In this document: positions 967 to 55,000 of the stretch, one piece after another | Layout: every line of letters begins with the position of its first letter | Numbering within the stretch: position 1 is the first letter of the stretch | Program-made: the position numbers and the translations under genes | Assembly (NCBI GenBank): GCA_022829145.1 | Contig: CM040746.1 | Coordinates: 26,472,832-26,536,831, forward strand | DNA length: 64,000 bases | Direction of reading: 5' to 3' | Origin: Albula goreensis | Taxonomy: Eukaryota; Chordata; Actinopteri; Albuliformes; Albulidae | Notes under the pieces: generated by a model | The model's database searches: none | What the model saw: the letters and a program-made list of their open reading frames with translations, nothing else | What the model was told of the DNA's origin: nothing

Positions 967-2793
967 CTATGGCTGTGGGGGTGGCTGTGGCTCACTGTCC
1001 ACTCGGCTGCGCTTAGCAGGTAGGCTATGGTCATGGGCTTTACGGATGTGGCGATAAAGGTCCCCAGACTGCGTGTAGCTGCGGTAGCAGTAGCGGCACT
1101 CATAAGGGCGCTCCCGCGTGTGCACAATCGCGTGGCGCCTCAGGGTGTAAGCGCAGGAGAAGGTCTTCCCGCATGTGGCACAAGTTGGCACATCCTCCAC
1201 ATAGGTGCCTAGGGAATCCTGGAAGTCCTGGAAGTATATAGCTTGTAGGTCAGATGACTGTGAGGAGGGTTGGTGGTGGGTCGATGAAAAGACTGTGGCA
1301 GGAAAGGATGGAGAGTCAGACGTGGCTGGGCCATGGGGGGAGAGGGGGAAGGCAAGAGCCTCATGTTGGTGGGAGAGGTGAAGGAGGGGGTGGTGGGGAA
1401 GGAAATGAGGATTAGTCAGATCATCATTTTGGTGATCACTGTCAAACTCGTCTCCTTTGTCTCTTTCCCTGCCTCTCCCTTGGACTCTATCTCCACCCAA
1501 TACCCCTTCCATGTCATCCAGCTCTTCATCAGAAATTACAATGGCCTCCACCTTCACCTTCACCCCATCTTCCTCATCTTCCTCTCTCCCTCCTCTGTAT
1601 TCCCCTATCAAAATGTGAGATTCTCTGGCTGATGTTTGCTGCTTATCCATACTTTCTCCCCCGAGTACCTCTGTCTCACTCTGAGCCTGGATTTGAGGGT
1701 GGAGAGGGGCTGTCAGGGAGAATGGGGTGGTTGGCCGTGGTGTTGAGGGTGAGTCAGGAGCCAGGATAGGTGGTGTCTCATGAGCTGGCAAAACAGTTCT
1801 TTGTACTAACATTGGTGAATCTTCACCAGAAATTAATACACTAGCTTGCTCTGGACTGACAGCACTGCTGTCATTCTCAAGTGTCACTGTGAGTTCTGTG
1901 GTCACATTAGTTTGCACCTCAGAGCTTGGGAGTGAATGTGGAACAAGGGAGGAGGATGAGGAGGGGTGATTGCTGGAGTACATTTCAGTGGAGCTACAGG
2001 GACTGGCAAGCACAGACTCTCCTTGACTTCCAGGTCTGGACTGTGCTACTGCACCAGCTAAGCCAGGCTGAGACCCAACCCTGGATACTCCCAAGTCTCC
2101 TGTGGGAAGAGAATCCATGCCTGGCTGTGTTGTATCGGCAACATCAGGACTGGCAGGCCCAGTGAATTTGTCAGGGTCATTGGGGCTTTGGTTAGCAGGT
2201 TCCTCTGTCTCTTCTGCTTTCTTCTCGGAACTGAGGGAGATGAACTGGCTAATGCGAGGGTACGGAGCTGCTGACACTGGTACAGTTTTGGCAGTCCCTA
2301 GTGCTCTCTCCATCCTATCACCCCCTACTTCCTCCCCTGTTCTCATGGGCAGCCCACCTATCACCCCTGCCACCCCCACTGTTACACACCCTTCTTCTGC
2401 TTTGGTGCTGTCTGCCTCTGCCAGCCCTCGACCCTGCAGCCTCTTCTTGCACACCCTCACAATGTCATTCATGTGCAGGAAGCTGGCTGCTGCCAGTACA
2501 TCCTCTGGTGGTGGCTGGGCAGCTAGTTTCAAGGTACCCTCATACATGAAGTCCAAGAGCAGCCCAAAGGCCATGGGGGTGACAATGTCCCCGTTAATAG
2601 TGACCATTTCTCTCTTACTCAGCGGCTGCTCTGAATAGAACATGTGGAAGAAAGGTGAACAGGAGGCCAGGACAGCACGGTGGGCAAGGAAGCGTGTTGA
2701 ACCAACCTGGACAGTGCAGTCACATAGGAAGCCCTGCAGGCGCTGGGTACGCAAGCTAGCCAAAAGCTGTTGACTGTGCAGAGGAAATTCCAT
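967..2793 (-). CDS. zbtb3: BTB/POZ and C2H2 zinc-finger protein, ZBTB3-like
   Basis: A single long coding exon of 608 codons, close to the roughly 570-residue human ZBTB3. The N-terminus ([18 protein letters not shown]) begins a BTB/POZ domain over about residues 1-120, the dimerisation and corepressor-binding module. A long Ser/Pro/Glu-rich low-complexity linker follows. It holds a SUMO-type VKVE motif and an acidic patch (SDEELDDME). Two C2H2 fingers lie at about residues 538-558 (CX2CX12HX3H) and 566-587 (CX2CX12HX4H), joined by TRERPYE in place of TGEKP. A basic AKRSR tail may be a nuclear signal. The expected role is a nuclear sequence-specific repressor. I start at the ATG at 2793 because the two upstream in-frame codons are GTG and a 3' splice site (cag ending at 2799) sits just before it. 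One or more non-coding 5' exons must therefore lie at higher coordinates; I could not place them. The gene is head-to-head with trpt1. The symbol rests on both ends of the protein resembling ZBTB3 as I remember it. Confidence 0.93.
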
Positions 2794-2799
2794 CACCAC

Positions 2800-5700
2800 T
2801 GGTATAATGTGGGTACCAGACAGAAAAATGGAGTTGGAAAGTCAGGAGATCAGAGTTGAGTGCTACAACTGGTAGGCAGGGCAGGGTAGACACAAGTGGC
2901 ACAGAGATGTCTTGAGCACAGAGTATATGGAAAATTATGGGATAAGGGATATAAAATTGAAATGGCTCAAGCTTGAATGGGACAAAGTCGGGTTGTGCTG
3001 CTGTTAAAACAGGAGAGGGAGATGTGCTCACTCTCCTATGGACTTGGGATAGAAGGAACAACTTCTTGTCTTTCTATTCCTGTTGCCTTTATCACAGTAG
3101 TTGGAGCTGAGAAGACATCACTGCAAACTCCAGCTTTACTGTAGAAGGGTGGAATGAAATCCCAAAACCTCTCTCTTCCCTCATCCCCCTCCCCGAACAC
3201 CAGCAAGGAAGGGGACAGCAGTCTGAAAACAACAGAGGAAGATATTCTTTAGTGTCATGACAATGATAATGTCATCAAAAAAGGTGAATTGCAGATTCAG
3301 AGTATTTCCTTAAGGCGGAGGTGCAATCAGAGCTTTTACCCAGATTATTTCATGTAACAGAAAGTTTGTGATTGCACAAAATGTCACTGCAACACTATAT
3401 GTCTATTTCAAACAATCACACTTAGCTTTTGAACCTGAATCAATTATGGTGTCTGTTCAAATGATGATGTTTGCAGGTCCTGCATTCTATTTCTTATTCT
3501 ATGGAGCAATAGCACAACTCTGCTATTCACATTTTTCAGTTTGCATCCATCAATGTTGCCTACACAGAAATAATGAAGAGCAAATGATAAAACAGCCAAG
3601 GTATCCAACTGATTAAACTACATGTCTTCAAACTACACATTTTCTTCAAAAAAAAATTGCAGAACACAATCAAGATTTATATGAGAAAATGGAAAGATGG
3701 AAAGAGTTAGGTGCCATCTGATTTTAAACAGCAAGGTATTATCAAATCACAAAGATAAGACTCAAAAATACCACACTACAGAGTTGTGCTGTCCTGCTGA
3801 AACTTCAAGATTTCAGTTTGAGCCTACCAGAGGGAGAATAAATTACATTCTGGGACTTCCAAGCAGGAAAGCTGCCAAGAAAAAAAGGCAACTATCAACC
3901 TTTAAACGCGCAGCTCGGTACTCATCCTCAGACCACCACATTTTGACCTCCATGCTATGCCCAAGACTGAGCATGCCACTCTGCACTTCTGTGCTGACAT
4001 CCATGCAGCTACTCAACACAAGCCAAAACATTTGATTCATCATTACTAAAGAGGATCTGGTTGCACTGTTGACCACTCCATCTGAGGTGCTGAAGTCACT
4101 TTTCTGCGCTGTTGAATAATGGTCAGCACTGTGCTGCAGTGAGGTTGTCTTCCAAATGACTGTCTGTAGCCACCTCCTCACAAATGAACTGCGAATGTGT
4201 GGGTTGTGGTCACCTGGTGTTTTAATGGCCAGTCAATCAACAAAAAATGCATAACTACTATGATGCCTAAGTCTCCATGCTGCTCCCCTTGACACTGGCC
4301 TACCAGCTCTAATTCATGGCTGCTGAGCCAGAATGCAGACATAGTTCAGTCCCTATCCATTATGTTTCTTTGGTAAGTGGAACCTAATCTATGTGTATTT
4401 CTTTCTTGATTTTTAACCAGGCTTGAAATTTAACTGGTTGAATCACCTAAAATTGTATCCATTCATACTCAAATCTCTCACTAATAAGGTGATGCAATGG
4501 TTATGCAGCAGTAAATGGGACACTTAAACATATCACAGAGACTGATAGAATGGTAACATTATTCACACTGATGCAAAAATATTAAATGCATCTATAAACT
4601 ACCACAACATCTATACTTAAAAATCTATACAAAAAGCGATACCTTGTTTAAAATACTTTCTGGGATTGCTGACGACAATCAGGAGAACAGTATGAAAATG
4701 AACTTCATACTTCATACTCAATATGAAAGTTTCCAGAGCTGAAGCTCCGACTTGAAAATGCATTGCATTAGCCTTTTCAACAGCAAACAATGATGATGAC
4801 TTTTAGGCGATCTGTTCCAAATCACTGAGGTTTGCTTTCCACAATGCTCAGTCTAATTCGTGGCGCTCAGCTAAAATGACAGTTCTCTGGTGGGTGTTGC
4901 TTGCTGGATGTGATCAGCTAAAGAGCAATCTGTCACTTTACTCGACTTTAGCTAACCGAGTTGGAATGAATGAATCAACTTAACGAGCTAGCTGGAAAGC
5001 TCGGCAACGCTGGCTAGAAACAAAAAACTAGCAGCCAGTTAGCAGTACATTTGTTCAGTGTTTTTATTTGAATAAAACATTGCTACGAAGTTAATTACAA
5101 TGCCATTAACGTAAGGTAAAAATGAATACGGATTGGCTACCGAACAGTTTGTAGCTAGCTAGAAATTAAATAATGTTAGCTCCCTGAACAGCCGACGGTA
5201 GCTTGTAAGACAATACCTTGGAAATTAGGCGTAGAGTATCAGTGACCCCACCAACAAGAATTTTAGTTTAGTTTATGGCTTTTAACCATAACTGTTATAC
5301 GTATACATATCCATAATACATGAAGTGAGCTACATCAACTGCACGTTAGGATTCATTCTAAACCAAAGCTTGCTTGGTGGTACGCAAGCTAACTAGGCTA
5401 TGCAAACAAATCGGCCCCTTTTCTTTTCCCTGGCCCCCCTGTCGGGTACACGAGCTACACATTTTGAGGAACGTCTATTTCTAGAGAATTCTATACTCAC
5501 ACATACACTGGCAAACATAACTACAAAACAGGTTTAGCTTCAGAGCCAGGCAAGCCAATAAACAACAAATGAAAGTCTCACCCCTCACCTCAAAGCAGAA
5601 AACAACGTCCGCCTACCGTGAACCGTATTTCTGCTGTCGGTAAAAAATCTGTCTGTTAATCCAGCCCACTGGTCCCCAATCCTCTGGTTTGATTGGGTGG

Positions 5701-6034: not shown

Positions 6035-7535
6035 ATGGAAGGCCAGAAAAGAGGGCGAGGAGGAAGAAGGGGAAGAGGTGGTCGTCACCGAGGTGGGGAG
6101 GTGAGAGAATGGTAAACTAATTTAATAACTTGCAGGAGTCTTTCAAATGTAAGGTGATGGTCTGCTCTGTGTCCTTTAGGACAGGGATGTACATCTGTCA
6201 AAGTCTTTGTCTTTTGCTCTGCGCCATGGAGCTGCTCAGATGGGGTTGGACATGAGCTCAGGTAAAGATGTAAAACCGAAGTTGTCACAGAACTCTGAAC
6301 TTGAGTTACAGTGCTGAGTCTCATTCTCATATTGTACCTTTGTGCAAGGTAATTAACATCAGTTTCTGGCAAAAACAATGCTTGCATGAATAGGTTACAT
6401 AGCATTTTACACAGAAGTCATTCTGTTAAAATCACAAAACCATAGATAAATTAATAAATGTCCTTTTTGCAAGACCTCCCACTTTTTTCTGAATCATCTC
6501 TAGATGGCTTCCTCCTGGTGGACGATCTGCTATCACACCCTCAGTTCAGGTCCTTCACATTGGAAGATGTTGAGAGGGTGGTGGCCAGGAATGACAAACA
6601 GCGTTTCAAGCTATGTGCAAACCCAGAAAATGGGCGGCTACAGATCCGGGCCAATCAGGGACATTCTGTGCAGGTGATCCTGACAGGAGTAGTGACAAAC
6701 AACAATACTGTGACAGTCCCCCCCCACAAAGAATTGCACCAGCAACTGATGTAAATTATGCTTTTATCAACTGGTTGACAAGCCCTTCAGAGTTATTCAG
6801 TTGTATATTTCTTGATTACGTTACATTATCAAAATCTGCACTGTAGTTATTCTTCTACAATGTCAGTATTTTTTTTTAACTCATCATGGGACTCCTAATC
6901 TGCCTCTTAGCATTGCATTCTATCATTACTCTTCTCTCTGTCTGTCCAAGGTGGCAGACCTTGAGGTAAAGGAAGTTCAGCTTGATACCCCTGACTGCCC
7001 CAGGGAAGCTGTGCATGGCTCATACCTCCAGCACTGGCCTTCCATACGCTCTCAGGGTCTGCGGAGAATGAAACGCACCCACATCCACCTGGCTGCCGGC
7101 CTGCCAGGGGAAGAAGGGGTTCTCAGTGGTCAGTAAGAGAAAAGAAAAAATGCAATGTGATTGAATTGATTATGAATATATATGAAAGCCAATTTATTTT
7201 TCTCTGTTTAGGCATGAGGAGGAACTGTGACTTGGTTATTTACATTGACGTTCACAAAGCTCTGATCGGTAAGGACACAAGACAACTGAAGTCAATGGTT
7301 TTCTCCTTATTTCATAAATTCATATTTTTAATACTTGCTGTTTGTGCCTCTGTACTGCATTTGTTGTGATATAGATGGAATTCCTTTCTGTTGGTCAGCA
7401 AATAAGGTTCTCCTGACACCTGGAGATTCAGAAGGGAAACTGGCTCCCAAATATTTTACCCGCGCTCTCAAACTGAAACCACCACGTGAGGCTCTCATTG
7501 ATCCTGATTATAATAGCCAGATAACACAGCAGTAG
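6035..7535 (+). CDS. trpt1: tRNA 2'-phosphotransferase 1 (six coding exons)
   Basis: Tpt1/KptA-family enzyme. The family transfers the splice-junction 2'-phosphate of tRNA to NAD+, releasing ADP-ribose 1'',2''-cyclic phosphate and nicotinamide. Exons: 6035-6100, 6180-6261, 6504-6673, 6951-7128, 7212-7268, 7375-7535. All introns are GT-AG and the total is 714 nt, giving 237 residues (human 253). Exon 1 encodes a basic RGG-rich leader (MEGQKRGRGGRRGRGG). The catalytic signatures are present: SFALRHGA with Arg37-His38, IRANQGHS with Arg about 98, and KRTHIHLAAG with Arg about 148. The C-terminal part has DGIPFCWSANKVLLTPG. No essential family residue seems lost. AATAAA signals follow the stop at 7741-7746 and 7825-7830. 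The gene runs tail-to-tail with fermt3, as in human. The start ATG has G at -3 and +4. Confidence 0.95.
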
Positions 7536-21851: not shown

Positions 21852-24800
21852 TCATCGGATGGCTATCAGCCCCACATCAATGAGCTTCTGAATCTTCTGG
21901 GCAATAACTGGGTTCTTCAAGTGACTGGAAAACAAAATAGTGAGGGAAAGATTAGAATTACATGTATGGGCAGGAGCATGTGGTCAATAAAAGGAATTAT
22001 GAGTTTGTGGGGAAATGCATTATTGGATACATGGATAGAAGCTAAGCATGGACTCAGTGTGTATGCGCGTGCGTGTGTGCGTGCATGCGTGAGTGGGAAG
22101 ATGAACATAATCAGGATATTTTAATATAAGTGTGACACAGCAGGGGGGTGTTAGGGTGGGGTCCTTACTCGCTAAGCGCCTGAGGGTCTTTCTGCATCTG
22201 CTCCAGGATGATGCGCATGGCTGGATCACTCATGATCTGCTGCACCTCTGGGTCGGCCATGGCCCTCCGTTTCACTTCCTCTGGACTGTCATTCCGCATT
22301 GCCTGGTTAACCAAGCAGCGCTGCAGGCCTTCTGTGGCCTCCTAACCCAGGGACAGAGAGGAGGCTGTGACGTGACTGCAACAAGGGCTCCTCACATCAT
22401 GGAGAAGGACTCCAAAGCATATCAAGGAGGAGCAAAGTGGAGCAGCATTGAACAAACTAGACTCAAGCTGTAGGCACTGATGGGCATAAGTAGATGTACC
22501 TCACAGGGAGGTATTTAGGTTAGTCTGCAGCTATACAAATTTAATAGTGATCTGGAATTTACAGCTATTAGCCGATTCCAGATTTCAGAAATGCAGAATT
22601 ACTGGGTTACCTTTGAGTTGGCGTCAAGCTCAAGGGCTTTCTGGTAGAAGTCCATGGCTTTGGAGAAATCCTTCATGGCTTCCAGAGCTGCAGCCTTGCG
22701 AGTGTAACCCTTAACTACAGAGAGGAAGATTGAAAGTGATAAGAAACACGATGAAAGAAGGGACAAGAAACACGATGAAAGAAGTGGAAAAACACAGAGT
22801 AAATGCACAGAGAACATTAAGGGGAAGAGGGTCAGAGGGTTCTAGAGAATTTGATTGAAGACATTTTGAAAAGGAATTGAAAGAGGTGGACGGTACTTAC
22901 TGAATGTTGGTTCAAGCCTAATACAGTCCTCACAGTCCTGTGTGAAAATTAGGGAGAGCAAGTGAAAAGGAATGCTAGGACAAATCCAAGTAACACAAAA
23001 CCTTGACAATCAGTACAAATGAGTTTACTTCTACTGAAACAGACAAGACCTAACTTAAAATGCAGGCCCTGGGTCACTGGTGCAGGTGTAACACCAGTCA
23101 TGGTAAGCCCTGTAGCTACACAGTACACCTTCCCCAGTTCACCATACAAAATATTATTTTACCAAATTGCTAAAACTAGCTGAAAGTACTCATTTTAGGG
23201 AACTCCATACCAGCATAGTGAACTTACTCTGTAATAGAGGAAAGTTTTAAGCATTTACATGATGTATATTTAAGTGTTGAAATAAATCCAAAATATTATA
23301 AAAACAAATTGTGGTATAGTATACACAGCCTTATACTAGCAATTTCCTGCATTCCAATTGCATTTTCATTTTCACTGTATTTACCATTTCTAATTGTGCT
23401 GATTCCTGTGTCCTCCTGATGTTCTTTATTTTTCAGATTAACTTACAAGAGGCTTCACAATACTTTTAAATTCCATAATCCGACAAAGTCAGTGATCATA
23501 GTCCTCAGTTTTCAGTTTTTACTGAAATTTCACATTTTATAAATCAGCACAATCTGGGGAGAGTCACCAGAGTACACAGACTTGGCTTGGGTTTTTATAA
23601 TCTTAAATGAACATGACCAGAGGATCTGCTTAACAGTTTTAGTTGTGTTTATTTGCTCTCAATTATGTTTATTTGCTCTCAGTATGTAAGAGGCATGCTC
23701 TGGAGCAGCAGTGGTGGCAGACTATAAAAGCACAGCATGTCCCTTGCTCAGTAACAGAGTGACATCCATGGCAGTGTCAACGCTAGCGCTGATACCTGTG
23801 GGCCCGGGTCACAACATGATGTGCTGATGCGTGTTAAGTGCACTGTACCTTGAGAGCCAGCTGAAACTCTGCCAGCTTGGTGTAGCAGGCTGCCCGGTTG
23901 CTGAACAATTTGGCATCATGGGGATTTCTCTTGATGGCTTCAGTGTAATGTTTCATTGCAACAGGATAGTCACCTGAAGGGTCAAGGAAGGGGTACTTTG
24001 ATACTGGTTGCACTGTGTGATTTCACACATGTATTCTTCTGAGAGATGAGGGAGTGGTCATACAAATTGTATTATTGTTTGTTAACAAAAACAAATGCAG
24101 AATGTTAATTTGGTTGTGCTACTTTGTTCTCCCTGACAGTTTGTTCCAAGTGCTGAAAAAGTATTGATGACATGACAAATACTGAGGATGTACATTCTAT
24201 GATAAAAAGTAAAAGTTTCCAGACAATCACCTCTCTTTTTTTATATATACAACTTTCCCCCTTCAGAATCACTAGCTATGCCTCAGCTACCTCTGCAGGG
24301 AGAACCACAGCAGAAGAGCATTCAATATCCACAGGCTTTTTCTTCTCACTATCTTAATGACTCCTATGTACAATTTTTAAAATCACACACAACACTTTCC
24401 TTGCATGCAGTTAGAACCATCAACTGCACTCTCCATTACACCCTACATCCATCCCCAACCATGGATATTAGTACTAAATGACTTCTTAAGGACTTGGATG
24501 AGGAAAAGCAACTCTGCCCATAAGACAAATTTTCACATAGTAATTAGAATAACTACAGTTTTCATAATGTGATGTACGAGTGTTTGTGTTGCAGCTCCTG
24601 GGGCTGTGTTAAGCATGCATAGTGTCGCGGAATCTCATAAGCATTCCTCATGCTCACCCTTCTGGAAGGCCTCGTTGCCCTTGTTCTTCTCCTCCATGGC
24701 TACTTCAGGGTTGATGTAGGCCAGCTTCTCCTGCTCCTTCACAATCTTTTCTGCCTGCATGGGGTCACGCAGAGAGGGAGAGAGTGATGAGGGCACTGGG

Positions 24801-27800: not shown

Positions 27801-29786
27801 GTCTGGTTTAACATGGGTTCACTGTATTGGTAAAGTTCACATCATCTTCTCCAGAAGATAACTGATCTTCTCTACCAGCTAATCGTGCCTCCATGTTCTG
27901 AAGACCCTCTTTCAGCTGCTGATTGGACGGTTCATGCTTCAGTCCTTCTTGATAGGTCACTTTGGCCTCCTCAAATCGTTTAAGGAACTCCAGGGCTGCA
28001 GCCTTGCGAGAATATCCCTAAAATGACAAGTACGTTGGATTTTTTTGGCTTGATTTGGCTGGATACAACATATTTGTCTCCATTCATTCATAACCAGGCA
28101 AATCTAAGTCTGAAGAAAGGCAACCTGAATGCAGAGACAATGTCACTCACTTTGCCCCAGTCTGGCTTGATCTCAACGGTCTTGCAGGCATCCTTAAGGG
28201 CACTCTCGTAGTCACCCTTCTTGGCATAGGCAGCCGAACGGTTGCTGTAGAGGACGTGGTTGGAGGGGTCAAGTGCCAATGCCTCAGTGTAGCAGCGGAC
28301 AGCCTCATCGATCTGTCCTCCACTCAGTGCCTTGTTTCCCTTGTCTTTCAATTCTGCTACCTAGGCAGGGGGTAAAGACAGGGTGAAGTGTGACCAGGCT
28401 GAGAGCACCATGGGTATTATTACTAGGTTATTGAAAGTAGGGAGAAAGGGTCATAAGGATTGCCTAGAATGTAGAGCATTAGAATAAGGAAAGTAAGAGA
28501 GGTGTGTGTGTGTCAGGTATGACAGATGTAAGGGAGGACATACAGGGAGGAATAAACATAACATAAAGGCAATGTAAGAAACATTTCACATTGTTGTCAT
28601 GTCACAAGACAAAACCACAGAACACATCAGGCCTGTGGACGAGAATGAGCAGTGATACAAGTAGTTAAAAACAGTCTCAAGTTCATGTCTATTTTCCGCA
28701 GTTTACTCTGGGTGGCAACAAACTGTTAGATCAATTCCCTAATCAGTGACCCATTATTAACATGTATGTCAGACTTATCTCGCCTTACATTACTTTCTCC
28801 TAAAGTTATCGTATAACTTAAATTAAGGATGTCTGCCTTCTGAAAAAGATGGGAGTCATATTTCTCCGTCTTGATTGCTAGCTACATCTGTCCTACACCC
28901 CCACCCCCACGCGTCTCGCATAATGGATAACTAACGTTAGCTAGCATTAGCCAAGACATCGCTAATGACCAACATACCAACTTTGGAAAACTGTGTCGCT
29001 AGCGACATATTGATCACTGATCATACAGTAAACTTACAAACCAGCACCTCATAAGCTGATATACAGCTAAACAATCTCCGACGAGTATTATGTTAAACTG
29101 CATTAACCACCGTTAGCTTATATCGTTAGCCGAGAGCATCCAATGTCAATTAGATGGCTTGAAAGCGTTAATTTTATTCACATAAACAGTCAAGAGGTTC
29201 TCTATGCAAACATTTATTGTCTTGAGTTACGCCAACGTGTCTAGTTATGCTTGCTAATGGTTACACTCTAAGCTAAAGACAGATACTTAGCACAATCTTA
29301 CTGACAATGTAAGGCAGCTAGCAAGCGCTAGCCGTCTGGTTTCCTCAGGTCTGAGGACGGACTCTCCACCGAGGTATAACGTTACTGTCAGCGATAAGTG
29401 GCTTGCTGGCTGTAGCAACAACATTTTTTAAAAAATAGAAACTTGGCTAGGAAGCCATAGACCATATGCTGAAATTTAAACTAAGCAACAAACCTACCTG
29501 GTTAGCAATGTAACAATAAGAAACTGACTGCGAAAGTAACGTTTGCTTCAAATGCCTCTCAAGCTAGCACACTCGCTAACATTAGCTTCAGAATTGTAGC
29601 TGTTTAGCTGGGTGATACGGTGCCCGTCAAAAATCCTCACAGTCGTGCAACTGTTCTTTTGAACTCAGATCATTTGATCCGATTGTAAATATATACTTGA
29701 CCTTCAGAAACTGTGAAAATCAAGATATAAATCTCAACCAACCGTTCAAATTCGTAACTACCGGTACCAATACTTACTTTCTCCAT
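21852..29786 (-). CDS. stip1: Stress-induced phosphoprotein 1 / Hop co-chaperone (14 coding exons)
   Basis: An adaptor that links Hsp70 to Hsp90 and passes clients between them in the cytosol. Exons in transcript order: 29786-29778, 28360-28151, 28017-27876, 27122-26981, 26292-26127, 25924-25798, 25689-25587, 24976-24856, 24754-24658, 23973-23849, 22937-22901, 22714-22611, 22341-22169, 21924-21852. All are GT-AG, with 1629 nt and 542 residues (human 543). Exon 1 codes only for Met-Glu-Lys. TPR1 (about 4-105) has every carboxylate-clamp residue: Lys8, Asn12, Asn43, Lys73 and Arg77. DP1 follows ([17 protein letters not shown]), then an acidic/proline linker ([20 protein letters not shown]), TPR2A, TPR2B ([20 protein letters not shown]) and DP2 ending [13 protein letters not shown]. 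The ATG has A at -3 and G at +4. A perfect heat-shock element lies 381 bp upstream. The gene is head-to-head with macrod1. Confidence 0.97.
22741..22784. repeat. 20-bp direct repeat in a stip1 intron
   Basis: The 20-mer at 22741-22760 recurs exactly at 22765-22784 with a 4-bp spacer. It lies just upstream, in transcript sense, of the exon at 22611-22714, in the pyrimidine-rich approach to its 3' splice site. Confidence 0.85.
23646..23681. repeat. Short direct repeat, period 20
   Basis: TGTTTATTTGCTCTCA occurs at 23646-23661 and 23666-23681. It is a minor local duplication in a stip1 intron. Confidence 0.8.
27780..27796. repeat. Poly(C) homopolymer
   Basis: A run of about 17 C in the stip1 intron between the exons at 27876-28017 and 26981-27122, followed by ATTAGTCTGG. 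Length is likely to be polymorphic or an assembly artefact. Confidence 0.85.
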
Positions 29787-30697
29787 CGTGCTACCATGAG
29801 GTTCCAGAAGCTACTGTGAGGTGACAACCTCCTGTACCGCCTACAAGGGAATATTGATGAACTATGGAGAGGCGGGGATACAAAGGGTCCTTCTCTGGTA
29901 TAGGCCACTAAATATGCCAATACAAAAATTTAACATTTTTATTGGGTTGCTCTGAAGTTGATCCACCTTCTCTTTGCGACGCAAGAAATCTCTTTCAGTG
30001 TGACAGGGGAAACTTCTGTCAGTCAAAGTGGAAATCACTGCTGTCGATTGGCTGATCCGACTGTCAAAACATAATATGAATCATTAAAGGAACTAACCCG
30101 CCTCCTAAGTGACAAAAGTTAAGGCGGGACCCAAATCGAAGTTTCTCGGCCTATCGGTTTCCACTGTTCTGGAAATTTCTTGAATGATTGGCAAAATAGT
30201 ACACCAACCAATAGGTGACACTGGAACAGAGTAGTTTCCAATTGGACATGTAGCCCAAGGAGCGAAATCAACAGATGAATTTGTTGGTTGAATACATGTC
30301 GGAAGTCGTGCAGATTTGAAGGATGTTCTCAGTCCGACATGTAAAAAAACTTAAGTTGGCCGAGGAGTGTACATATCTACAAATTTCAGTGCATTGTCAG
30401 TGCATTTCATGTAAACATAACTACTGTAAGTTTGCAGCTACATTGGACAGCAAAGTCAGGGAACTTCGACCTCGATGTAGCTACATCTCGACGTACGATT
30501 GGCTGGAGAAAGTGTGTGCAAGTCTGTTTGTTTGGTCCTCCTACTTGCTGTTCGTTGAGCCAGAAATCCCCCATATTTGAAAACAGACTGGCGAATGTAG
30601 ACTCCCAAGTGCTTCCGAGAAAACCGAAACCAGTCTCTAGCTAGCTGGATACCTATTTAGCAGCGTGAACCCGATAGTGAATGTCGGTGTCACTAGT
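29787..30697. promoter_or_regulatory. Bidirectional stip1-macrod1 promoter region
   Basis: 911 bp separate the two divergent start codons, so both promoters and 5' UTRs must lie here unless distal exons exist. The region holds a perfect heat-shock element (30167-30184), two extra GAAnnTTC dyads (30009-30016 and 30138-30145), and CCAAT or reverse CCAAT boxes at 29941-29945, 30047-30051, 30187-30191, 30208-30212 and 30238-30245 (overlapping in both orientations). This NF-Y plus HSF layout fits a stress-inducible TATA-less gene. I saw no obvious TATA box. Confidence 0.75.
30167..30184. promoter_or_regulatory. Perfect four-unit heat-shock element
   Basis: The sequence reads TTCTGGAAATTTCTTGAA, which is TTCnnGAAnnTTCnnGAA with every consensus base matched. 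Trimeric HSF1 binds arrays of three or more such units. The site lies 381 bp upstream of the stip1 ATG and 514 bp upstream of the macrod1 ATG. STIP1 is a known stress-induced HSF1 target, so stip1 is the likely client; binding itself is inferred. Confidence 0.85.
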
Positions 30698-33014
30698 ATG
30701 GCGTTTCAAATGTCAATACTTGTCTGTCGTTTTAAAATCCCATCCAGTATCGGTGCACTCACCCACTGTCGTGGAATCAGTTGTGTTAAAGTGTTCGGTC
30801 CGAAATCGAACCCCAATTTAAACAGCAACGTTTCAGCAGCAAATCTTGCACCAAAATCCGTGTGGAATCCAAGTGTACGTAAGCCAACTTGCTCTGTGTT
30901 TACTAGACGTTTTTACTACCCCACACTACATTCGGGGGTAGCGGATTCCGGGACAAGTGCGGCGAAGTTTTCTACTAACTCATCAGCCACAAGGTCCTTT
31001 CAGGCAGATAGTCTTGGGAAATCTTCCCGCAGGAAGAATTGGTCGGTTGCAAAAGGCTGTTTTGTTTTGGTGAGCGCTCTTGGTTTGACTACTATAGTTG
31101 CCTCGTTGCATTCGAGCCCGCTGTGCGCCATGGCCACAGGGTCCGACTCCATCAACTTGGACTCATCCAACACCGACTGGAAAGAGGCTAAAAGTGAGTG
31201 ATCGTCTACGGAGACTGCTGTCACTTTCTAGGGGAGCTGTGGCAGGGGGTGTGTCAAGCTGACCGAAAGGACAAGTAAATACAGTAATAGCAGCCGTTAT
31301 TGAAACAAAACACCAAAGAAAGAGAACTTCTGATCATTTTTTTTACAATAAAATAATCAGTAATAAAATAAAGCAGTGGATTTTAGTCACTGAAATCGTT
31401 ATGGTATTGCCTTAGCACAAAATCCCTTATAGACCTCCTATGTTACAGGGTTTTCGCAATTCTCTCTCCTCACATGCTACTTTAGCTTGTTGGAACAGAA
31501 TAACGTGGACCTTGCTGTAACTTCAGCGATCGTCCGAACTTTAATCACAGACGTTTCATATCAAATTATTAAAATGAGTAGCACTTAAACGTGTTGTAGG
31601 ATTGTCACACGTATCCCAAGGGGAAGATTCGTTTGTGATATGTTTGGTCATGAACGTCTTTATTTGCATAAAATGTTTAATTTACGCTTGGAGTATTAGG
31701 GCTCCTTGCTTTGTCTTTTAGGATTGTGTATTTCGTGTCGTTGATTCCCCCATTCTATCAAATTGAGAAACAACTGAGCATGTATTCCAAACCTTTTTGT
31801 GAAGTAGCAAATGAGCAAACACTGCTTGTTTGGGTGACTGCACTCTGCCTATAACTACACGTGTTACAGTCCTGGTGAAAATTAATTGTGGCTGGCTGCA
31901 TATTTTGTTGAGGACATGCACTAGCAGTTGTTCAAGCACTGAACTAGACTCACACATTTCAAAGCAATTCAGAAGAAGGGCATGTGATTTACTTACCACA
32001 ACAAATGTATTGGCAGTGTGTCAGTTAACTTGGGTGTGGATTTGAGAGCCAAACTGAGAACCTGACCATGACATCCTAATCTGTAACAACTGTGACTGTG
32101 ATCTGTAATGACCAGAGTGGGACTCTTCTGTTTTGCATCAAATCACTGTGTCCTTCCACAGTCCATTACTGGGGTTTTGGGTTTCTACTTAGCTAGGAGA
32201 ACCGGCCTCACAGGTCCACCGAATTTGAGAAAATGAACCCCCTTGCTGGTTCCTTATTGACATGGTGAAGTCCAGCCCTGTTTTTCTTTGCTGTTGAGAC
32301 AAGAAGATTGGCCTGAAATCCCTTCAAAGGACTGAAGCTTAGGGCAGCTTGGCATTTTATATGTGTTTATTAATATAATTGTGTGACTGACTTTTTCTGT
32401 GTCCCTCCTCTAATTTCTCTGTCCCAGAGTTCATGCTCGCAGCATCTCAGCAGGAGAGACAGGCATTATACTGGACTGCTGACTTCCTCTCCCTGGATCA
32501 GGTCCCCATATGGACTCCATCAGGTGAACTGAAAGTCATCATACCTCTACATGTTGAAAAGCAGCAAACATTTTACTTAATGAGAGATGGTGGTGTGAAG
32601 AATGCAAGAGCTATGTGGCTTTATTATATGCTTGTATGGTAAAGTATCAGGGTTGGTTAAGATGAACTTTGATAATTTACATAAAATATAATCTGACATG
32701 CTACACTAATGTCAGTCTACTATTGTATGTGTATACTTAAGTTTAGGATGGCTTCCAGAATTGTGGTCTCAAACATAAATCAAGCAGCTTTTGTCTAGTG
32801 TGATTGTGTTGTACATTTGGCCCACTAACGTCTCGTTTTCTTTTAAAACTGAGCAGCACACTGAATATATAAATCAGCTCTGCATGTTTCATTTGTCTTG
32901 CAGGACAACCCACAGGAGACCAGTCACATCCAGCTAATGAGGCGTTGAACCCCAAAATATCTCTGTTTCGTGGTGACATCACAAAACTGGAGGTTGATGC
33001 AATTGTCAATGCTG
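30698..33014 (+). CDS. macrod1: MACROD1 mono-ADP-ribosylhydrolase, first three coding exons (partial)
   Basis: Exons are 30698-31193, 32428-32523 and 32904-33014. They encode 165, 31 and 36 full codons with phase-1 junctions. The gene is cut by the intron that begins at 33015. Family members remove ADP-ribose from acidic side chains and hydrolyse O-acetyl-ADP-ribose; human MACROD1 is mitochondrial. Residues 1-82 contain no Asp or Glu and many Arg, Ser and Thr, a presequence signature, with RRFYYP at about 70-75. A hydrophobic stretch follows at 120-137. The landmark NTDWKEAK matches human STDWKEAK. Exon 3 opens the macro domain (KISLFRGDITKLEVDAIVNA) and stops just before the expected ANSSLLGGGG loop. 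I found no catalytic-loop exon in the rest of the window. The ATG has A at -3 and G at +4. An in-frame GTG at 30665 was not used. Confidence 0.9.
31194..32427 (+). other. macrod1 intron 1
   Basis: GT-AG intron of about 1.2 kb. No additional gene or repeat is recognised. Reading frames at 31718-32045 on both strands lack family resemblance. Confidence 0.75.
32524..32903 (+). other. macrod1 intron 2
   Basis: GT-AG intron of 380 bp between two in-phase exons. It is AT-rich and I see nothing else in it. Confidence 0.8.
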
Positions 33015-49996: not shown

Positions 49997-52078
49997 TCAC
50001 GTGTAGGAATAGTCTATGTCTGGAATGCCTCCTTCCCGGTACCCGCGGTTGGTGCCATAGCCAGTGGTGGCTGCATGGTGGTGGGTGCTCTTGTAAAGGC
50101 TGGTGCCATTGGAGGGGAAGATGGTATGGATGACATAGTCCTCCCGTGGCTTGGGTCGGAGTGGCTGCTGAGCAGCCATGGGTGTCATCTGGAAGCCCGG
50201 ACCCCTGATCTCCAGGATGGAAGTGTCTTTCTTGGTGCCTGATTCAACATAATCATCGTAGTGCTTGCCGCTGCGGGACCCTGCACCACCCCTACTGTAG
50301 GTGGTATGTTCTCGGGTAGAAAGGTACCCAGCGCGGTGCCCATACCAGCAGAAAATACCAAAGATTAGGGCCAGGGACACCAAGGCCGTGGCCCCACCAA
50401 TGATTCCCGCAAGTGGGAGGGCAGTCAGCTGCTCAGAGCCCTGCTCCCCATCAGAGTCTGCACCAGGCTGCCCAGGGTCTGAGGTCTCCGCTTTGGCACA
50501 CACCGGCGTCTCATCTGAGTCTGTGTTAGTGCCTGCAGCACCCTTGCCTGAGCTCCCAACCAGCGGCACCATGCAGATGATGTAGCTGGAGCGGGGCTGC
50601 AGGGCAGTGAGCAGGTATTCACGGCGGTCACCCGGAACCAGAGTCTCTGTGATGGAACCTACAGCAGGACTGGTGCCCAGTCTCAGCCAACTGAGCCGGA
50701 AGGAGGGGGCGGGGTGTGGGGCACGCCAAGTTATATGGATGGTGTCTGGGGTGAGGGGCTTTACTTTGAGGACCAGTGTTTTTCCAACCCCACTGCCTCC
50801 CAGAGGATAGTCCTGACTAGAGTCAGGGAGCCTTAGTCCTGGGCGTTTGGACCTGAGTGTGAAGAGGGAGCCCTGGGGTGGGGGGAGGGTGGTTGAGGTG
50901 GTGGCAACTGGCAGGCCGCCACCTCTTTCCCTCCCCCCAATACTACCCCCTCCCCCACCTTCACATTCCTCCATCTGGCTGGTGAGGTCCCTGAGGGCCA
51001 TACCCCGCACCCTCTCTGGCCCTTGGCAGCTGAGGCCCCGCACGGTGACAGAGGGGCCCCTGGCATGCAGCCAGTCATGTAACCAGCGCAAGTTACAGCC
51101 ACAGTACCAGGGGTTCCCCCGCACCAGCAGCTGTGCCAGGCTGTCCAGGTCCCGGAATAGGCCCCGGGGCAGGGTGGTTAGATTGTTGCCTGACAGATCC
51201 AACTTCTGCAGCCGTCGCATGCCATCCAGTGAGCCCCTGGGCATATGGGCCAGAGCGTTCTCCTGTAGGTAGAGCCGCTGCAGGTGGGCACTGGGCAGGT
51301 TGAGCGGGGGCGTCTGGAGGGAGTTGCGCACTAGTGAGAGCTCGGTCAAGTTAGAAAGACGGGAGAAGGTGTCATCTGCGATACGTTGATTAGCAAGCAG
51401 GTTCCCATCCAGCACAAGGCGACGCAGTGAAGCCAGGCCCCGGAAGGCGTGGGTAGGGATGGTGGAGATGCGGTTGTCATCCAGCCGCAGCTCCTCCAGA
51501 GAAGATGGGAGCCCAGATGGAATGCTTGAGAGGTGGTTGCGGGAGAGGAAGAGAAGGCGTAGACGTGGGTTGTCTGCAAAGGCCTGGTCTTCGATGCTGA
51601 CAGTAGAGACGGAGTTGTCATCCAGATGCAGTTTCTCCAGCAGTGGCAGGCGGGCCAGTGCAGACCGAGGCAAGCTCCGAATGTTGTTGTCCTGCAGGTG
51701 GAGCTCACGCAAAGAAGGAGGCAGGTGCATGGGAAAATCGTCCAGCTCATTGTCATAAAGGTACACCACCTGTACAGTCATTCGCCGCTCCAAAGAGGTG
51801 GGGAGCCCAGCATTGTCGATGCGGTTGTTCTGTAGATAGAGGACAGAGGCCGAAAATGGCAATGGTGGGATGATGCTCAGTCCCCGGTCATTGCAGTAGA
51901 CAAAGCCCTCATCACACCGGCATGCCGTGGGGCAGACTACATCACCCTCCCCCTCTTGGGCAGCCTCCGCAGCGGCAGCAGCGGCAGCTGCCAGCTCCAG
52001 CATCTCAGCCAACAGTGTCAGGCAAAGGAGGAGCAGGAACAGCCAGTCACGGAGCTCTGCCACACCTTCAGGAGCCAT
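49997..52078 (-). CDS. flrt1: Fibronectin leucine-rich transmembrane protein 1, nested in macrod1
   Basis: A single coding exon of 693 codons, as usual for FLRT genes. It is a type I membrane adhesion and guidance receptor; the family binds latrophilins and UNC5 and modulates FGF receptor signalling. Order: signal peptide ([13 protein letters not shown]), an eight-alanine tract (30-37), LRRNT from Cys49 ([11 protein letters not shown]), about ten leucine-rich repeats (e.g. [28 protein letters not shown]), LRRCT ([16 protein letters not shown]), a Gly-rich insert ([10 protein letters not shown]), an FN3 domain, one transmembrane helix (about 555-577) and a cytoplasmic tail ending [10 protein letters not shown], identical to my recollection of human FLRT1. 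The start at 52078 precedes ELRDWLFL, matching human DLRDWLFL. CAG at about 52084 just upstream could be a 3' splice site from a distant 5' UTR exon. It lies on the strand opposite macrod1. Confidence 0.97.
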
Positions 52079-55000
52079 AGTGCTGACGGAGGCCCTTTAC
52101 CCCCACTGGCTCTTTCTTGTTTTAGGTTGACCCCACCCCCTCACACTTTGGGGGTGACAACACCGACTGAGATGCTGTTGATTAGTTTGATCAGGGGACC
52201 ACGTTGCTGCTTCTGTATATCCCTCTCACCCCTATAGAGAAGAAAGGAGGGAGAAAAGAATGTTATTTGGAATACTTGCTCATTGAGTGAACAGTGCAGT
52301 AAAAGGCAGGGCAACTGCGTCACCTGAAGCTTCAAAATCCTGTTGGCATTCATATCTTCTTTTAATTACCTAATTGCTTTTGAACCCATTATTTTGGTCA
52401 GAATTTAAATTAGCTGTCCTAATCCTTTTTGCTCCAAACAAATTCACCATTAGCGCCTGTTGTATGAGCACATGTGTGGTTGGGTGCAGTTCTGTATGAC
52501 ACTGTGTTTATGTGGGCAGTGTGCTACATTAGTGTGCGTTTGTCAGCGGGGAGGAAGTGACAGGGCAAGTGTGTGAAATTGAACGGCTGGGCAAATGACT
52601 CTGTCAAGCAGCTCAGATTATGTGGGTCACTCCTTTCAAGCGAGAGACAGAGGGAAAGTGAGAGTGTGAGGGTGGGAAAGAAAGGGGGAGAGAGTAACAG
52701 AAGGGGGATTATAAAACATATGGAAATGTGATTCTCAGCATTAAGCAGGTGTTGGAGAGAATACCACACACACTCATTCTCTCATATAGATACACCAACC
52801 ACACTCATTCTTCTTCATCAGAGAAACTGTCACACTGCTATTGTTACACATAAACATATATATCAAAGGGAGGACATGGTACTACTTTTGTCCAGGTCCA
52901 TGTTCAATTAAATACAGCATACACAGCAGGTGCATTTTAAAATTAGATTTTGAGTCCTTCTTTGACAAGATCCTCTAATTACCAAAAAAAAGTTGCTCCT
53001 CATCAGTTACAGTATGTTGCAGTTAGTGCTGTTGTTAAACACTGCAGTTAAAATAAAAGTGATTTGTTCAGAGTTGCACCCAGGACGATTTTACACATTA
53101 ATTTGCTTGTCCAGTTTTGTTTTTTTCTGCAGTTTTAATCTTGCATTTATGTTGTAATGTGTTGTATTTGATACAGATTTCGATGTGGGTGGATGTGATT
53201 TGCAATCTTGTAAATATGGCAACTAAACAAATGAAGAGAAATAGATTGCGGTTGGGGGACCACTGAATTTTGAGCTTAGTATTCAAGTCAAAATGCATCT
53301 TATCACATAGATATCTTCCTTTTCATTTCAATTTTGTGTTCCTAAAACTTTAACATTTTCAGGTTATTGTAAAAGAGAATATCAGGTCCCAATCAGGATT
53401 AAACACATAAATACTGATGTGTCCCTATGTGTACCTCTTCTTGTGACAGACCTTGAAATTATAATATCCCTTATTTAAGAATTAATATTCCTATAAGGGA
53501 TCAAACACAATTGATCCTTATGGTGAGAGAGGACAGAATACAGAGAACCTGAAATGAATTGAACTGAAGAGAAAGGACTGGAATCTCCTGAGTGGCATTC
53601 TCCAAGCCTTGGTTTTTTTTTATAAAGGAGTATGTTTCCTAAAATGAAAAGCACTACCTTCACATGCAGCGTATCACAAGGAGGAGGGAGCGTGTAAGTC
53701 CAATGCTCATGAAATTGCCTCTGTGCATTGATATTGGAGTGTGTGCCCCAGCCCTCCAGGCTACAGCTGTGGTAGAGGGGTTAATGTGTTTGGATCACTG
53801 AGCGCAGGCAGACATTGGGGCTGGCTCACCCTGGGCTGCAGAGACCGTCGCCTCAGGCAGTGTATGCAAAGCAGCTCTTTAGTTAGAGTCGCCTCCCATG
53901 CAAAGCTAATAGGACATGCCAATATTGGAAATTGTAGGAGAGCAAACTGCGATGTTTATTTACAGCCAGCAGTAGAGGCTGGAGGGAGGTCTGAGTTTGC
54001 CTGCATGTATGGTTTGTTGCTATATTTAAATGCTTTGGCGATGGTGGTTTGATTTCCATGCCAGAGAATCTTCCTTGGAAGGTGTGAGAGGCTAGAATGG
54101 AGAGTCAGAAATGGAGACCAGATGTAGGAGACAGGGGACTGGAGATAAATTATGTTGGTTGGATGAGAGGAGCCCAGAAAGTGAGGAATTAGAGAGGAGA
54201 TAAATGAAGTAAGAAGGAAATCGATACAAGCGAAACAGAATTTCCCCGAAAAAACCATTATGAGTGACGGTGTAAAGTTTGCTTGTCCCGCTTAATTTGG
54301 CTCAACTAACTGGAATCTGTTAAATTCACTCTGGGGTGGATCACAGCTTGATTATCCACGAGAAGTCATCACTGATGATTTGATGCTAATTACATTCTTT
54401 TCAAGAGCTGAGTTAAACTGAGTCAGATGAAGGGTGAGGGCAGTCCCCCAAACCCCCTGCATAAGCTTTAAATCAGTTAGGTATCAGGCGGCTGTTTTGG
54501 ATTTGTTCAGTTGTTTAATCCAGCTAAAGAGAAATTTATAAATTAAGCCCCAAAATTATGGCAATTTGAGGAATTTCCAGTCACCTAACACTTCTCGAAA
54601 TGAAATGTACTGACGCAAGATGGGGCGACAAAGTAAATAATATAGAAACACAGACTATATACAAAATTCTCACCCTATAAATAAAACCAGAGCATTGTCC
54701 AGAAAAAAAGCAGGTGTGGGGAAAAAATCCACCTGAAGTCATAATCGCGAAATAACTAACTTTGTGCCAAACACATGAGAATTCTCTAGCATTCGGCGGA
54801 AATGCCCATCTGTAAATATATTGCTCAGCCATGCATTTTAGATAGAATGGCTCTCTACTTTAGAGGATATCATTTAGATATTGTTAATTATATTAAAAAT
54901 ATTAAAATATATATTTTTTTCACTTTCGATTTTGGATAATTACCGCGTATAATTGGTAAGATTCAGCTTTACTAGCCGACCGACATTCGAGCATCAAATG

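Follow-up and report, generated by a model that had tools for sequence, protein, structure and literature searches.

The stretch of DNA analysed here (64,000 nucleotides from Albula goreensis, contig CM040746.1; the window in what follows) carries two genes that lie head-to-head, with 911 bp between the ATG of stip1 on the minus strand (29786) and the ATG of a macrod1-like exon 1 on the plus strand (30698). Between them lies a heat-shock element (HSE) with four perfect units, which is accompanied by shorter GAAnnTTC dyads and by CCAAT boxes (Table 1). Elsewhere in the window there is a BTB-zinc-finger frame of 624 codons (967–2841, minus strand), whose best solved relative is the BTB domain of ZBTB18, and Rfam at gathering scores gave no matches across the window.

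Table 1. Coordinates of the features discussed, in positions of the window.
Feature	Positions	Strand	Remarks
stip1, open frame with last coding stretch, LIAIR then stop	21855–21983	-	
stip1 exon 2, first TPR domain	28150–28360	-	start exact, end approximate; PDB 7kw7_E, E 3.5e-51
stip1 exon 1, coding part Met-Glu-Lys	29778–29786	-	ATG at 29786; donor GTAAGT from 29777
Third dyad TTCCAGAA	29802–29809	none	15 bases upstream of stip1 ATG
Flanking two-unit dyad GAAACTTC	30009–30016	none	GAAnnTTC scan
CCAAT box AGCCAATCG, stip1 side	30045–30053	-	extended NF-Y-like context
Flanking two-unit dyad GAAGTTTC	30138–30145	none	GAAnnTTC scan
Perfect four-unit HSE TTCTGGAAATTTCTTGAA	30167–30184	none	exact pattern scan
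CCAAT box	30187–30191	-	2 bp from HSE
CCAAT box	30208–30212	+	
Palindrome CCAATTGG	30238–30245	none	two overlapping CCAAT boxes
CCAAT box AGCCAATCG, macrod1 side	30496–30504	-	extended NF-Y-like context
Putative macrod1 exon 1	30698–31193	+	165 codons and one base; ends TDWKEAK; donor GTGAGT at 31194
FLRT-family open frame	49997–52096	-	699 codons stop to stop; where macrod1 intron expected

The gene on the minus strand is identified by its sequence as stip1. Behind an AG acceptor, its exon 2 begins at 28360 and keeps the phase of exon 1. In the PDB this exon matches the chain named "Stress-induced-phosphoprotein 1" (7kw7_E) with E 3.5e-51 and Hop's TPR1 domain (1elw_A) with 1.8e-33; a score as good as the first (3.1e-51) is also reached by one engineered TPR protein. 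More pieces of stip1 follow, the last of them ending in LIAIR with a stop near 21855. Another ATG is found on the same strand at 29797, 11 bases before the stip1 ATG and out of frame with it. A good start context has A at −3 and G at +4, and by this rule the ATG at 29786 is the better placed of the two.

For the plus-strand gene we infer the name macrod1 from the ending TDWKEAK of its exon 1, which we take to be that of human MACROD1, from the basic N-terminal part of this exon (17 Lys and Arg vs 2 Asp and Glu in the first 120 residues), from stip1 as its neighbour and from an FLRT gene downstream. The name is given with this reservation because the search of the remaining window for a macro-domain exon gave nothing credible: 14 motifs of the macro domain, sought in the three plus-strand frames from 31194, gave only a spurious AAGP at 50270, and 10 patterns, sought in all six frames of the window, gave TDWKEA in exon 1 and stray matches at 7083 and 9177. 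Twenty residues of the exon-1 peptide had no match in the PDB at E up to 10, and Pfam returned no family for the exon-1 frame. The macro domain could be encoded outside the window, or split motifs could have hidden it from the scans. The basic N-terminal part suits a mitochondrial protein, and MACROD1 is described as mitochondrial with an N-terminal targeting sequence (PMC5787345). Upstream of the macrod1 ATG there are two further plus-strand ATGs, one opening 85 codons (30323–30580) and one at 30681 whose 46 codons run over the main ATG. They would be of consequence only with a transcription start farther upstream.

The FLRT-family frame is in line with the arrangement in mammals, where FLRT1 lies inside MACROD1. 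Of the solved chains, FLRT3 is the closest to its LRR part and FLRT2 the second closest, the identity to FLRT3 being partial as judged by eye, not counted, and no FLRT1 chain is among the best 60 of 360 matches. If the gene were flrt3, this would point to macrod2 rather than to macrod1. Despite the best LRR match this identity was set aside on gene order, flrt1 being preferred, and the frame is probably flrt1, lying within an intron of macrod1.

An earlier note on this DNA had reported, from the letters, a perfect four-unit HSE with all 12 consensus bases matched, GAAnnTTC dyads at 30009 and 30138 and several CCAAT boxes nearby. All of these are present: the element, at 30167–30184, is unique in the 64-kb window, both dyads were found, and the CCAAT boxes come to nine in 913 bp. 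The element agrees with TTCnnGAAnnTTCnnGAA at 12 of 12 fixed bases, and is given without strand because these bases are palindromic; the scan of the window gave no other exact match, and in 100 dinucleotide shuffles of the window there was none. From a first-order Markov model an exact match is expected 0.0063 times per 64-kb window, 8.9e-5 times in the 913-bp gap and about once per 10.2 Mb, a genome-wide rarity that is calculated from the composition of the window and not counted in the genome. The perfect four-unit pattern appeared in 3 of 20,000 simulated intergenic sequences with the dinucleotide make-up of the gap itself, and a perfect three-unit HSE in 281 of 20,000. Only the perfect match stands out, because the matches with at most two mismatches to TTCnnGAAnnTTCnnGAA (6 in the window vs 3.87 expected) are not enriched, 20 of 100 shuffles reaching 6.

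The array ends at four units, since the adjoining unit scores one of three bases on either side and the best five-unit score is 13 of 15. Canonical HSEs are built of three or more nGAAn units, which alternate in orientation and keep a 5-bp phase, and often have a pyrimidine-purine pair between TTC and GAA of the tail-to-tail pairs (PMC8379338). By this description positions 30167–30184 hold four perfect units, with TG, a pyrimidine-purine pair, in the first tail-to-tail pair and TT, which is none, in the second.

The dyads carry less information. GAAnnTTC occurs 27 times in the window (19.5 expected), a number reached by 7 of 100 shuffles, and a single dyad therefore means little. Five dyads, counted in both orders, begin within 168 bp near the HSE, and nowhere else in the window are five so closely grouped, although three of these five are not independent because they lie inside the four-unit site. 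Likewise, three of the six dyads in the gap between stip1 and macrod1 are inside that site; six or more were reached in 4 of 20,000 simulated gaps. The dyad at 29802–29809, which is an addition to those of the earlier note, probably sits in the 5′ UTR of stip1, and its third unit is imperfect (8 of 9 bases matched over three units).

With respect to CCAAT boxes (1.8 expected in the gap), the gap is among the richest stretches of the window: at least nine were found in 8 of 1262 overlapping steps of 913 bp. It should be noted that the dyad and CCAAT counts were made after the region had been chosen and are thus descriptive. The longer NF-Y-like consensus RRCCAATSR fits only two of the nine boxes. 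It was also observed that a run of ten bases forming an inverted CCAAT box, CGATTGGCTG, is found identically at 30045–30054 on the stip1 side and at 30496–30505 on the macrod1 side.

The centre of the HSE is 389.5 bp from the stip1 ATG, just upstream of that gene, and 522.5 bp from the macrod1 ATG, both distances being taken from ATGs and not from transcription starts. Position alone does not settle which of the two genes the element serves. For stip1 there is, however, much prior knowledge. Human STIP1 is a named example of 162 "core" direct targets of HSF1, and Stip1 is among the targets shared by the mouse (PMC6888953). HSEs in the Hop promoter are stated in a 2024 paper, in which the Hop protein of SH-SY5Y cells exposed to several stressors showed no significant change (PMC12265868). 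In the liver of black rockfish the log2 fold change of STIP1 was 3.97 for high vs normal, 3.47 for high vs low and 0.44 for low vs normal temperature (PMC6002380, Table 3). Weaker support comes from muscle cells of spotted sea bass, where stip1 belongs to the hub genes of a module related to temperature group (PMC9456278), and from warmed salmon, which show enrichment of a pathway term that bears the name of STIP1, the gene itself not being displayed in the part available (PMC8042886). Since STIP1 is an HSF1 target in human and mouse and is raised by heat in rockfish liver, a good HSE beside a fish stip1 is to be expected, and the stip1 half of the reading is well supported by this knowledge and most likely ordinary.

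We consider it probable that 30167–30184 is a working HSF1-type HSE of the stip1 promoter, with a weak or absent effect on macrod1. In favour of this are the exact, unique and rare match at its distance from the stip1 ATG, the TG of its first tail-to-tail pair, and the dyads and CCAAT boxes clustered around it. Points against it are the TT of the second pair, the small share of CCAAT boxes that fit the longer NF-Y-like consensus, the unchanged Hop protein in SH-SY5Y cells and the poor HSE conservation reported for Perciformes (see below). Under heat, or another stress that damages proteins, three of the four inverted nGAAn units would be occupied by an HSF1 trimer. A further trimer may be brought in by the dyads nearby, and NF-Y bound at the CCAAT boxes could hold the region open. 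HSF1 and NF-Y would then jointly raise transcription of stip1 toward the minus strand, and macrod1 would respond weakly or not at all. What has been observed is a rare motif, where it lies, and the stip1 gene beside it; the occupancy by HSF1, the part of NF-Y, the induction and its direction we infer.

That the match is a chance or relict one without HSF binding, stip1 responding via the weaker dyads or another element, appears very unlikely. The likelihood of one match in a gap of 0.9 kb is about 1e-4, and the neighbouring gene is a known mammalian HSF1 target (PMC6888953), against which it can be held that the calculated rate of about one match per 10 Mb amounts to dozens of matches in a fish genome of several hundred Mb. 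Chance is also favoured by the poor conservation of HSEs in HSP70 and HSP90 promoters of Perciformes, where one of 54 conserved regions held one; "hop" and "stress-induced-phosphoprotein" are absent from the available text of that paper (PMC6836667). Even a real site may therefore not be conserved, and conservation of an HSE may be a poor test over long evolutionary distances.

HSF4 is a further heat-shock factor that could bind such a repeat. That the site is bound mainly by HSF2 or HSF4, with developmental rather than heat control, is nevertheless most improbable. HSF1 and HSF2 do bind the same type of repeat (PMC8379338), but STIP1 of human and mouse is an HSF1 target (PMC6888953). The factors are inseparable by sequence alone.

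The preferred reading, an HSF1-type element serving stip1, has also to be weighed against a true bidirectional promoter, from which HSF1 would raise both stip1 and macrod1 on heat in the manner of HSP60/HSP10. In a bidirectional promoter the genes are head-to-head and their start sites less than about 1 kb apart; the 911 bp set beside this limit are measured from ATG to ATG rather than between transcription starts. This short distance and the CCAAT boxes on both sides are in favour. On the other hand, STIP1 and MACROD1 are many kilobases apart in mammals, which means that the close spacing is not general. The mammalian HSP60 and HSP10 genes (HSPD1/HSPE1) are likewise head-to-head and share a promoter that is stated to be heat-activated, in which an HSE occupied by HSF1 comprises four or more inverted nGAAn units (PMC7262932). 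There, however, both genes encode partner chaperonins, whereas the second gene in the fish is not a chaperone. For human stress clusters it was reported that co-induced neighbours with few HSEs of their own may depend on HSF1 at a nearby promoter, MACROD1 and STIP1 being unnamed in the main text (PMC12864986).

The literature listed for macrod1 speaks rather against this reading. Among the listed matches for macrod1 with heat shock, HSF1 or stip1 no title deals with heat control of macrod1, and those pairing macrod1 with HSF1, judged by title and abstract start, include none on this subject. MACROD1 is absent from the main text of HSF1Base (PMC6888953), the sole mention of "heat shock" in the available text of PMC5787345 is the name of a marker protein, and "macrod" is absent from the main text of the fish heat-expression papers (PMC6002380, PMC8042886, PMC9456278). 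Macrod1 was likewise absent among the listed matches on fish heat literature, a weak negative because the search was loose. We regard the bidirectional reading as doubtful, co-induction of stip1 and macrod1 on heat as rather unlikely, and as unlikely that in this fish lineage the short gap brought macrod1, a mitochondrial ADP-ribosylhydrolase, and the cytosolic co-chaperone Hop under joint control by HSF1. Of the earlier interpretation, in which both genes could be under heat-shock control, the perfect four-unit HSE stands, as does its place upstream of stip1 between closely spaced head-to-head genes. The stip1 part agrees with the STIP1–HSF1 literature, and the macrod1 part is possible by position, a guess that can be tested.

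When the locus is compared with known systems, a close likeness is to the mammalian STIP1/Hop promoter, in which HSEs are reported for the same gene, a core HSF1 target (PMC12265868, PMC6888953); in the fish the site is a perfect four-unit array in a 911-bp head-to-head gap. The human stress-cluster Epromoters also are HSE-bearing promoters near another gene. They differ in that the human case includes HSF1 ChIP-seq, PRO-seq, reporter assays and Epromoter deletion, while the fish site is known from sequence (PMC12864986).

As an HSE of stip1 the site is of interest mainly to work on heat tolerance in fish, for which it marks where stip1 is likely to be controlled. Were macrod1 under HSF1 as well, heat shock would be linked to the removal of ADP-ribose marks in mitochondria, and its co-induction would connect mitochondrial ADP-ribosylation with the heat-shock response.
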